Below are positions 16,059 to 19,098 of a stretch of DNA of 64,000 bases, in pieces. Under the pieces are notes generated by a model. The model did not search any database. It was not told where the DNA came from and saw only the letters and a program-made list of their open reading frames with translations. A program made the position numbers and the translations under genes. The first letter of the stretch is position 1. The number at the start of each line of letters is the position of its first letter. The DNA is from Pyrobaculum islandicum DSM 4184 (lineage in GTDB: Archaea > Thermoproteota > Thermoprotei > Thermoproteales > Thermoproteaceae): assembly GCF_000015205.1 (NCBI RefSeq), contig NC_008701.1, positions 434,001 to 498,000 on the forward strand, given 5' to 3'.

Positions 16059-17978
16059 GTGTCTACTTCTCTTTTAGGCATAGCAAGAGACGGCGATGAG
16101 TATTATATTCTTAATATTACAGAGGGCTACAAGTCACGTCTTGTTTACTGGTTTAGAGATCTCGAAAACCGTATCTCTGCCGCACTTAAGATAGGCACGT
16201 CGGTTGTATTACTGGGGCCTCACGGCTCTGGCAAATCTGTACTCGCGCGTTATATAGCCGCAAAGTTTGTAAGCGAGTATTACGCAGTCATAGACCTAGG
16301 CGTAGATGTTGTCACTTTTGACAACTTGCTCGAAATACTTCCCGAGGTACCCAACGCAATGGGGTTTTACGACCCTCTTGGGATATCGTTTTACGACAAT
16401 CCACATCTCCCAAGAGCCGAGTTGGCCGTGCCCTGGATACGGCGGTGTCAGTATATAATAGACCGCGCCTTTTATCTAAACACACGTGACATACCGACGT
16501 TATTAGTATTGCCATATGACTTGTTTCGCTACTCCCCGTGTAAGACATACATAGAGAAGAACTCGAAAATTGTCGACATAGCAGAATATCTACGTAACAT
16601 AGATGTGCCTTCTATATTAAAGAGCGTGTTTTCTACACATGCAGCAGCTCTAGGCTGCAAGACTTCAAACCCAGACCCATACATAGACTACGTCTTGCAG
16701 AAACACAGCGATTTAAGTGGAGTTTTTGCCTTGGCGACATACGGCGGTAGGCTCTATGCCAGAAATAGATGCGCCCCATACAAACCAGATGTGTTATACC
16801 AAGACGTTATAAAAGAGCTTGCAAAGATATACTACAGACTATATCGAGAACTCTTCTTCCCAACTTGCCAAATCGCCAGAGCCTTAGCTATTCCTCTTTT
16901 ATTAAGTCTACAGGGCCAACATATACCACCGGCAATTATACACCCGCTTTCAAATGCAGATAGAATTTCTAGGAGACTGTATATATTGAGCAGAGCTTCT
17001 GCAACCCTAGACTCGGCGGCTAGAGAAGAGATACTTGAAGAACTAAAAGAGCTATATCAACCACAGGAAGAGTTTGTCGACATAGCAGAGTGGGCTTCTG
17101 CGCCTAAGGAAAGCGTCGTAGTGGAATCGCTTAAGCTATCTATTAGAGAAGATCGTTGTACTAATATACAAGGAAGCCCTATACATAAAATAAGGACGGT
17201 TTACAAAGGCCTTATGACTCTAGACTATAGATATGCTATTGATCTAGCTAAGGCAGTAGCTTCAATAGCGCTGGGCATAGATATATGTAAAGAGGATATA
17301 GGTAAATATCTTTGTTACAGAGGGGAGGTACCCCAGATAATTATCGAAGCACTGGGCGGCGATAAGAGAATAACTCTTGAGACACATATTGTGTCGCCTA
17401 CCCCCCGCTGTCTTGAAGATGGCATTGAACTACTGACTCAACTAGCTGCTGTAGATGCAAGAAGAGCCCCGCTTCAATGTCTAGAGAAGTTTATAGAAGT
17501 TCTTTATAGCACAGTCCAGAAAAATCCAGAAAGTCTTGTTAAATTTTATAAACTATATAGAGACTATATGGAAATAGTTGCGGAGAGGGTAGCTACGCCT
17601 ATTCTTAGAAAATTCGCGCTGGCGCATTACTATGGCGTTGTGCCAAGCGAAGCCACTCCGATTTTAAAGAGGATACTAGAAGTTGCGCAAGAAGATTACA
17701 AGACCGTTGCGACGGTTCTAGCGTCTCTAGCTACTTTGACGTCTGAAGATGTCGCTAGTCTACTGCCCACTTGCGACTGTCCCTATCTAAGGGCGTTCTC
17801 CGCGTATCAAATAGCTAGAAAGCTTCTGGAGACTGACCGGTCTCAAGAAGTATTAAAAATTCTCGACGTCACAATTACAGAAGTTAAACGTGGCGACCCA
17901 CGGCATGAATATACACCACAGTTTATCCAAGAGGTAGAGGAGCTCTATCGGCAAGTGGCTTTAGAGCTTATTGTTTAA
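16059..17978 (+). CDS. Large P-loop ATPase of unknown function (AAA/STAND-like)
   Basis: A 639-residue protein starting at GTG 16059, about 24 bases after an AT-rich box (AGTTAAATAA). Walker A is GPHGSGKS (53-60); IPTLLVLPYD (about 146-154) may be Walker B, though the acidic pair is not standard. The C-terminal two thirds are alpha-helical and look repeat-like, as in STAND ATPases that use helical repeats as sensors. I cannot name a family. Its TAA interlocks with the stop of the convergent Ras-like GTPase in TTAA at 17975-17978, and MscS lies beyond, so a link to signalling is possible but unproven. Confidence 0.75.
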   Translation: MSTSLLGIARDGDEYYILNITEGYKSRLVYWFRDLENRISAALKIGTSVVLLGPHGSGKSVLARYIAAKFVSEYYAVIDLGVDVVTFDNLLEILPEVPNAMGFYDPLGISFYDNPHLPRAELAVPWIRRCQYIIDRAFYLNTRDIPTLLVLPYDLFRYSPCKTYIEKNSKIVDIAEYLRNIDVPSILKSVFSTHAAALGCKTSNPDPYIDYVLQKHSDLSGVFALATYGGRLYARNRCAPYKPDVLYQDVIKELAKIYYRLYRELFFPTCQIARALAIPLLLSLQGQHIPPAIIHPLSNADRISRRLYILSRASATLDSAAREEILEELKELYQPQEEFVDIAEWASAPKESVVVESLKLSIREDRCTNIQGSPIHKIRTVYKGLMTLDYRYAIDLAKAVASIALGIDICKEDIGKYLCYRGEVPQIIIEALGGDKRITLETHIVSPTPRCLEDGIELLTQLAAVDARRAPLQCLEKFIEVLYSTVQKNPESLVKFYKLYRDYMEIVAERVATPILRKFALAHYYGVVPSEATPILKRILEVAQEDYKTVATVLASLATLTSEDVASLLPTCDCPYLRAFSAYQIARKLLETDRSQEVLKILDVTITEVKRGDPRHEYTPQFIQEVEELYRQVALELIV

Positions 17979-18447
17979 AGTACTACCTTTATTAGGTCTC
18001 TGGCGTCGCCTTTTAAAGCAGATATATAATATATCTCCTGTGCTCCTACCGCTACAGCGATTTCATCAGCCTCAATATAGAAGCCGTATTCACGCGCGAG
18101 ATCCATTTTATTTCCCACGACAGCTAGTCTTTTAAACGGCTTTATCCCCCTATCTAACAAGTCGCTGTGTATTTCTACCAAAGCTTTCAGAGTATCGTAG
18201 TGAAGTAAATCATACATATATACGGCCTTGTCTACATAAAAAGTCCACATCTTGGCAAAGTTTTGGACTACCTCAATGACATACTGCCCTGGTACATCGA
18301 TGAGATTTACCTCTCTATTGGCAATATAAAGGCAGTAGACGCCAGGACGCAGAGTTACAGTAGGCCTAATCGACAGCCCCATAACCTATATGTAAGCGTT
18401 GTCTTGCCTACACTACAGACGCCCAAGAGGGCAACGATGTGGCACAC
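17975..18447 (-). pseudogene. Ras-like small GTPase, interrupted by a frame change
   Basis: In the frame starting at GTG 18447 the sequence reads HIVALLGVCSVGKTTLTYRL, a perfect G1 P-loop, then runs into a stop within ten codons. From 18382 a frame offset by one base continues MGLSIRPTV..., with G3 LIDVPGQ, G4 VGNKMD and G5 SALKG. Joined by reading one base twice (a -1 shift) at about 18380-18385 it gives a normal GTPase of about 158 residues. A TATA box TATTTATATA at about 18465-18475 precedes the P-loop part. It may be a real mutation, a recoding site or a sequence error. Confidence 0.75.
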
Positions 18448-18528
18448 GTCACATCTACAGGCACTATATAAATAGGAAGTGTCTCTCTAACCACCGTTAT
18501 ATTTAAAAATAAGTGAAAAAAGACGCGT

Positions 18529-19098
18529 ATGAATCCGGTAGGAAGACTTGCGTTGTGGATAATGATGTACATTGTTGTAATGGCTGTTGTACAATACGCT
18601 TTCCAATTTGTAACTAGTAACATATATAAAGATGCGATGAGCTACAAGGTCTACGTCGATATTCTACTCACTCTATTCTTTGGGTGGCAGATTGTAAAAG
18701 CGTTTGCAGATATTGTGGCGTTGCCTGTTGCTAAAAAACAGGGAGAGACCGCCGGAAAGGCTGTGGCAAATCTAATAAAACTTTTGGGCATAGGCGCTCT
18801 GGTAGCATCTCTAGCAGGCGCCGTCTCTGGCGGCGCCGCTGCGGCGGCTTTAGGCGGTTTTATCGGATTGGTAATAGGCTTTGCAACTCAGCAAGTGCTT
18901 AGCCAAGCGGTAGCCGGCATCTTTCTACTTCTCGCAAGGCCGTTTAAAATTGGCGACAAAATTGTAGGCGCCGGCCAAGAAGGCATAGTCGAAGACATAG
19001 GCGCTATGTACACTGTTGTTAAAGATGCCGAGGGTAACAAGATCTTAATACCTAACAACAAACTAATAGGCGATATACTGAAGATAAAGAAGTCTTAG
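18529..19098 (+). CDS. Mechanosensitive ion channel, small MscS type
   Basis: 189 residues with hydrophobic spans at about 8-27, 43-60 and 80-105, then the MscS core: GFATQQVLSQAVAGIFLLLARPFKIGDKI, outlined by QVLSQAVAG and PFKIGDKI, and the beta domain GIVEDIGAMYTVV ... ILIPNNKLIG. It ends right after this domain, so the large C-terminal cage of MscS (286 residues in E. coli) is missing. It would open under membrane tension to release solutes. ATG 18529 lies about 26 bases after ATATTTAAAAAT. The stop interlocks with the convergent gene. Confidence 0.9.
   Translation: MNPVGRLALWIMMYIVVMAVVQYAFQFVTSNIYKDAMSYKVYVDILLTLFFGWQIVKAFADIVALPVAKKQGETAGKAVANLIKLLGIGALVASLAGAVSGGAAAAALGGFIGLVIGFATQQVLSQAVAGIFLLLARPFKIGDKIVGAGQEGIVEDIGAMYTVVKDAEGNKILIPNNKLIGDILKIKKS

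Follow-up and report, generated by a model that had tools for sequence, protein, structure and literature searches.

The gene under study lies in a window of 64,000 nucleotides from Pyrobaculum islandicum DSM 4184, the whole stretch of DNA that was analysed; the genome is a single contig of 1,826,402 bp. On the reverse strand of the window, a Ras-like GTPase gene is divided between two reading frames and lies between genes for an ATPase and an MscS-like channel protein.

17975-18475, reverse strand: Ras-like GTPase gene in two frames (direct reading)
18465..18472, reverse strand: TATA-like element TTTATATA, located 18-25 nt before the GTG start (direct reading)
GTG 18447 to TAA 18355, reverse strand: upstream GTPase frame of 30 aa with G1, the P-loop (direct reading)
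18397..18423, reverse strand: P-loop GVCSVGKTT (direct reading; alignment with orthologues)
Between 18382 and 18383, reverse strand: site of the single-base deletion (alignment with nine intact orthologues)
ATG 18382 to TAA 17975, reverse strand: downstream GTPase frame of 135 aa, without a P-loop (ORF list and alignment)
18298-18284, reverse strand: G3 motif DVPGQ (direct reading)
18112-18101, reverse strand: G4 motif NKMD (direct reading)
18022-18014, reverse strand: G5 motif SAL (direct reading)
16059..17978, forward strand: ATPase A, 639 aa, intact and STAND-like, with the P-loop GPHGSGKS and a long helical C-terminal part (ORF, Pfam, synteny and structure model)
18529..19098, forward strand: MscS-like channel protein, a divergent neighbour (Pfam PF00924; synteny)

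Direct reading confirmed the arrangement described in the first-pass annotation, with the P-loop and a TATA box before the frame change and G3, G4, and G5 in the next frame. The downstream frame is −1 relative to the P-loop frame, and both are otherwise open across the junction. As had been proposed, reading one base twice at the junction joined the frames (..YRL-MGLS..). The resulting protein of 157 residues corresponded to one continuous orthologue frame in nine genomes and passed the Pfam cut-offs for FeoB_N, MMR_HSR1, Arf, PduV-EutP, and Ras; in the same scan, the 135-aa downstream ORF alone reached no Pfam cut-off. Since the joined protein matched the orthologue frame and the Pfam cut-offs were passed only after joining, the join is more than a chance fit. 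The GTG start at 18447 matched the position of GTG in the orthologues G009 and G001, and a similar TATA-like element was present at a similar place in G009, the closest orthologue. The position of TTTATATA would fit a leaderless or near-leaderless transcript. The statement that every motif was intact proved wrong, as the P-loop was GVCSVGKTT in the window copy and GVGGVGKTT in all nine orthologues: two invariant glycines, at what we take to be Ras positions 12 and 13, were replaced by Cys and Ser.

Orthologues and the nature of the frame change

The GTPase family was searched for in 61 genomes (the window genome and 60 relatives) and was found in 27, all of one class; strong matches (E below 1e-24) were confined to the same family, with one to six loci per genome. 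Of the other ten genomes in the genus, nine contain an orthologue, with identities of 66–89%, each as one open frame without a stop; the tenth, G005, had a more distant family member only. The orthologues, of about 157 aa with GVGGVGKTT, DVPGQ, NKMD, and SA, agree with the definition of Group 2 Rup GTPases (<240 aa, Ras-like G1–G5, and Gln in G3), and the window copy agrees with it only with both frames joined.

Alignment of homologues, suggested as a check by the first-pass annotation, indicated that none of the nine single-frame orthologues shares the shift. All nine cross the junction with exactly one base more than the window copy. The extra base falls within the codon just before a conserved Met-Gly, which specifies Leu in eight orthologues and Ser in G001. 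Because every orthologue carries this base, the alignment identifies the frame change as a single-base deletion, approximately 21 codons after the GTPase start, that is private to the window genome as represented by one sequence of the species. The double reading of A and the missing base are the same event seen from opposite sides. As expected of a unitary pseudogene, the disabling change was absent from all nine orthologues. An archaeal intron across the junction was rejected because the orthologues differ there by a single base, and two separate ordinary genes were rejected because, once joined, the frames correspond to a single orthologous frame over its entire length. No other copy of the junction DNA appeared in a search of viral contigs, and a single-protein search of genome contigs gave no relative. 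A profile search of genome contigs, from which near relatives were possibly left out, gave three distant lokiarchaeal loci with 24–28% identity.

Three causes of the frame change had been offered: a very recent lesion, a sequence error, and recoding. In the last case, ribosomes would slip by programmed −1 frameshifting at the junction and produce a full-length GTPase from both frames. The direction of the shift and the otherwise open frames agree with this, and there is an archaeal precedent in fucA1 of Sulfolobus solfataricus, likewise a crenarchaeal gene with two frames in −1 relation. In the available part of the fucA1 report (PMC8211752), −1 frameshifting is documented in this one archaeal gene, the well-studied case, which combines a slippery heptamer with a putative stem-loop. 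In contrast to fucA1, the junction in the window has no slippery heptamer (X-XXY-YYZ, that is XXXYYYZ) within the surrounding 120 nt, where the longest run is GGGG and none exceeds four, and no homologue keeps the frame change (0/9). Furthermore, the 85 nt downstream of the junction, where a stimulatory structure would be expected after 5–9 nt, folded no better than shuffled sequences (z +0.92; 161 of 200 shuffles equalled or exceeded its stability, with pseudoknots outside the test), and the P-loop glycines are altered. A hidden decoding signal was thus not supported, and frameshifting appears very unlikely. The recent lesion was supported by the comparisons below, and the sequence error was retained as a weaker rival.

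Constraint on the gene and losses in the family

To describe the constraint on the gene, residues private to the window genome were compared with those private to G009. For the GTPase, counted in columns shared with G009 and G008, the ratio was 10:0, against 181:200 for eight neighbouring proteins (Fisher p 0.0007), and two of the ten residues were the P-loop glycines. No such excess was observed in an intact paralogue, C (5:6), or in the neighbour X259 (20:25, see below). Against the reading as a decayed gene stand a broken paralogue, F, which shows no excess either (20:20), and the partner ATPase, which is intact and not accelerated (91:97). Otherwise invariant columns were broken at 5 of 83 positions in the window copy, compared with 0/78 in G009, 0/77 in G008, and 1/75 in G007. 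Within the window GTPase, private residues were enriched upstream of the junction (4/21 vs 7/135 downstream, p 0.043); this excess is fragile, since G001 shows the opposite skew (0/21 vs 31/134, p 0.008). In the downstream frame, seven private residues stood against none in G009 (p 0.006).

A codon model, whose omegas are rough because synonymous sites were saturated, gave 0.057 on the window branch vs 0.0075 elsewhere for the 21 upstream codons (2dlnL 8.67), and 0.019 vs 0.034 for the downstream part (2dlnL 3.58), i.e. no relaxation there. The signs of relaxed constraint therefore diverge, with the 10:0 vs 181:200 count in favour and the downstream omega against. The omega pattern suggests a young lesion, with selection acting along the greater part of the branch. 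Constraint on the window copy may have loosened, the two lost P-loop glycines included.

The same values bear on the possibility that the 135-aa frame is a gene of its own, read from ATG 18382 and kept as a P-loop-less GTPase-like protein. The frame is open and begins with an ATG, its omega is as low as 0.019 on the window branch while that of the 21 upstream codons is raised, and its private residues are sparser than those upstream (p 0.043). However, this ATG is the conserved Met codon of the orthologues, the sole promoter-like element noted is that of the original GTG start, and the seven downstream private residues vs none in G009 argue against preservation. A recent lesion accounts for the same constraint, and we consider a stand-alone gene very unlikely.

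Other members of the family in the window genome were also broken. Three of its five family loci were disrupted, compared with 0/41 in the ten sister genomes (p 0.0007), where loci were counted by hand from the rows of the family search; without the locus under study, the counts were 2/4 vs 0/32 (p 0.0095). At locus F (L099:3740-4340, near C1 508275-508729), a GTPase paralogue carries two separate single-base deletions, and eight orthologues of it are intact. At locus B (L071:6547-9270, C1 1692546-1695269), an inversion has its breakpoints in a GTPase paralogue and in the neighbouring ATPase paralogue, so that the first part of the former is fused to the middle and end of the latter. An intact X259 gene separates this fusion from the reciprocal GTPase fragment, and the locus has lost p153, p148, and the greater part of the MinD-like gene. 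A base-calling error could not mimic the inversion and deletions of locus B.

Split genes were also observed outside the family. A methyltransferase-like gene near locus C (L098:1086-1884) occupies two frames in the window genome and one in the other genomes compared. Sister genomes likewise have split genes, among them ACS-like in G004, MinD-like in G003, p148, and c53 in G002 (L038:4008-5392; L060:5656-6317; L063:1103-1532; L065:3597-4813). In this count of broken neighbours, antisense ORF clusters were excluded through a hand-made list, the MscS row of the window genome is an artefact of an over-long query start, and rows c28 and c34 of other genomes may be the same. Frame breaks are not rare in genomes of the genus, or in their records.

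A sequence error, in which the base is present in the organism but was missed in the record, would make the gene ordinary and intact and is the main rival. Taken alone, any single-base gap is roughly as compatible with a missed base as with a young lesion, and here the missing base lies beside the GGGG run in a gene that is otherwise well kept and, according to the codon model, under strong overall constraint. The two gaps in paralogue F, which is not accelerated, and the split methyltransferase-like gene could likewise be base-calling slips. Missed bases seem to be rare in the window, however, because, of the 70 window genes for which the fetched stretches contained a relative, only the GTPase gene was split between frames, yet the breaks cluster in one gene family. 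In addition, locus B is rearranged, and one missed base cannot explain ten private replacements, two of them in the P-loop. What decides between the two is the clustering in the family, together with the replacements and the rearrangement of locus B, and for this reason we prefer a real lesion, one that probably arose in the cell rather than in the record alone, and regard a sequence error as unlikely.

Ordinary gene decay is favoured because the relatives are intact and two further family members have been lost. In our judgement, the gene is likely to be a recently formed pseudogene, derived from a Rup-type GTPase of Group 2, that arose by a real, recent single-base deletion as part of a wider loss of the family. 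It would belong to the Ras-superfamily GTPases with a single domain, in the archaeal Group 2 of the Rup type, and would have been inactivated by the deletion some 21 codons downstream of the start. From GTG, translation would now yield a 30-aa peptide containing the P-loop and then stop, and the 135-aa frame, being without a P-loop, should not bind GTP. The deletion may have been added to a constraint already loosened, as the two lost P-loop glycines suggest, and the lesion may belong to a broader loss in which paralogue F acquired two deletions and a third paralogue was cut by the inversion. The frame change itself thus appears ordinary: it reflects gene decay, and nothing points to a novel decoding signal.

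Gene neighbourhood of the GTPases

The ATPase that was reported to lie tail-to-tail with the GTPase was confirmed as such: the stop of the 639-residue protein overlaps the GTPase stop by 4 nt, and overlaps of 4–17 nt were measured in eight genomes including the window genome. The two genes are adjacent in nine of the ten GTPase-carrying genomes, counting G007, in which the pair lies on a short contig (C101); in G002 they are approximately 200 kb apart. G001 (L041:7158-8875) is the mirror of the window, with an intact GTPase and a broken tail-to-tail ATPase. The widely conserved gene order in the genus is bmp, p102, p100, L40e, ATPase, GTPase, MscS-like, NERD-like, and ACS-like. The MscS-like gene was found beside the GTPase in nine of the ten GTPase-carrying genomes and was not found in G001.

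ATPase A scored 26.5 bits against Pfam nSTAND3, just below the cut-off of 27.2. Its structure model (pLDDT 87.2) consists of an N-terminal NTPase and a long all-helical part, and its PDB matches were weak and mixed, with Orc/Cdc6 and a STAND protein among them. Since the nSTAND3 score is sub-threshold and the structure matches are weak, "STAND-like" is used here as a description and not as a filing.

There are two instances of the pairing of GTPase and ATPase; they involve paralogues and differ in their gene arrangement. In six genomes (G003, G004, G006, G008, G009, and G010), an ATPase paralogue with 24–26% identity to ATPase A adjoins a different GTPase of the family and is divergent from the two-gene unit X259-GTPase; G002 has this ATPase paralogue with X259 and no adjacent GTPase. 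X259 proteins (259–280 aa, no Pfam match) lie beside two different GTPase paralogues (L061:4053-4829; L002:1887-2720). A relative of X259 (33% identity in the window genome) directly follows GTPase C at eight of nine genus loci, the exception being G001, and is tail-to-tail with a GTPase at five of the six fetched sister-genus loci, the sixth being cut by a contig end. X259 is thus a candidate dedicated partner of the GTPases. Beside the X259-GTPase2 unit, a conserved cluster of genes for a MinD/ParA-like ATPase, p148, p153, and ATPase2 was observed (L061:578-3979); it may represent a positioning or polarity system. Locus F has a THEP1-type NTPase (Pfam NTPase_1) as a neighbour, and locus E a dual-specificity phosphatase. 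Among those neighbours that were scanned with Pfam, none matched Roadblock, the MglB-type partner.

The first-pass annotation had also guessed that the GTPase-ATPase pair forms a signalling unit. The pairing in nine of ten genomes and the paralogous pair in six speak for this guess, whereas the arrangement is not obligatory: an obligate pair is weakened by the distance between the genes in G002 and by the broken ATPase beside the GTPase of G001. A functional GTPase-ATPase module is plausible, because the pairing is kept in nine of ten genomes and a second locus shows it again with paralogues of both genes, and in the relatives the intact GTPase is probably a GTP switch coupled to the tail-to-tail STAND-like ATPase. 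We tentatively suggest, as a possibility that is short of even, that the Group 2 Rup GTPases of the genus are not orphans but the switch of a modular system that includes the STAND-like helical ATPase and, at further loci, X259 and a MinD/ParA-like ATPase, and that the window genome is losing the GTPase side. If so, this genome would be a natural test of the role of the module. The pairing carries more weight than the lesion and is the part of the finding worth pursuing. Of the several neighbours in the genus, the foremost is the ATPase family, whose members accompany the GTPases at two loci that are paralogous, and the named partners are now open to tests of exchange, GAP, or effector roles.

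Comparison with known small GTPases

The model of the G009 orthologue was that of a small GTPase (pLDDT 84.8). Its closest structures were Rac, Rab, and Ras (Z of about 17, with an rmsd near 2.5 across some 149 residues), and Rab21 was the best match in the profile search (E 2e-9). The protein shares fold and motifs with eukaryotic Rab/Rho/Ras/Arf GTPases but differs from them in its identity of about 20%, its archaeal gene context, and its having no known regulators. In the MglA family, G3 is without Asp; unlike these proteins, the orthologues have DVPGQ as G3, which sets them apart in this motif. Bacterial MglA is further described as having an insertion between G1 and G2 (PMC4316618, available part).

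ArvA, the vesiculation GTPase of Haloferax, is likewise an archaeal small GTPase with dedicated neighbours (PMC10927574). As far as can be compared from its description in the available part of that paper, it differs from the present GTPase, whose neighbours are a STAND-like ATPase and an MscS-like protein; the same part places ArvA in 8 (korarchaeal) of 970 Thermoproteota genomes.

The closest known counterparts are the Group 2 Rup GTPases. The available part of Wuichet and Sogaard-Andersen (PMC4316618) assigns them to Crenarchaeota, with up to six duplicates and no conserved neighbours, and names them as possible kin of the ancestor of Arf/Sar/SRbeta. Within the 61 genomes searched, the occurrence of the family in one class would agree with the crenarchaeal range. 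The orthologues resemble them as archaeal single-domain Ras-superfamily GTPases with G1–G5 and with Asp and Gln in G3, and the several paralogues per genome, up to six here, agree with the "as many as six" of that paper. The window copy departs from the group in being broken and in its GVCSVGKTT. In the available parts of the later open-access literature (including PMC4915359, PMC10927574, PMC10936438, and PMC4917890), we recognised no account of these GTPase neighbours. The conserved neighbours found within the genus differ from the description of Group 2 in the available part of PMC4316618 and are an addition to the published picture of these GTPases.
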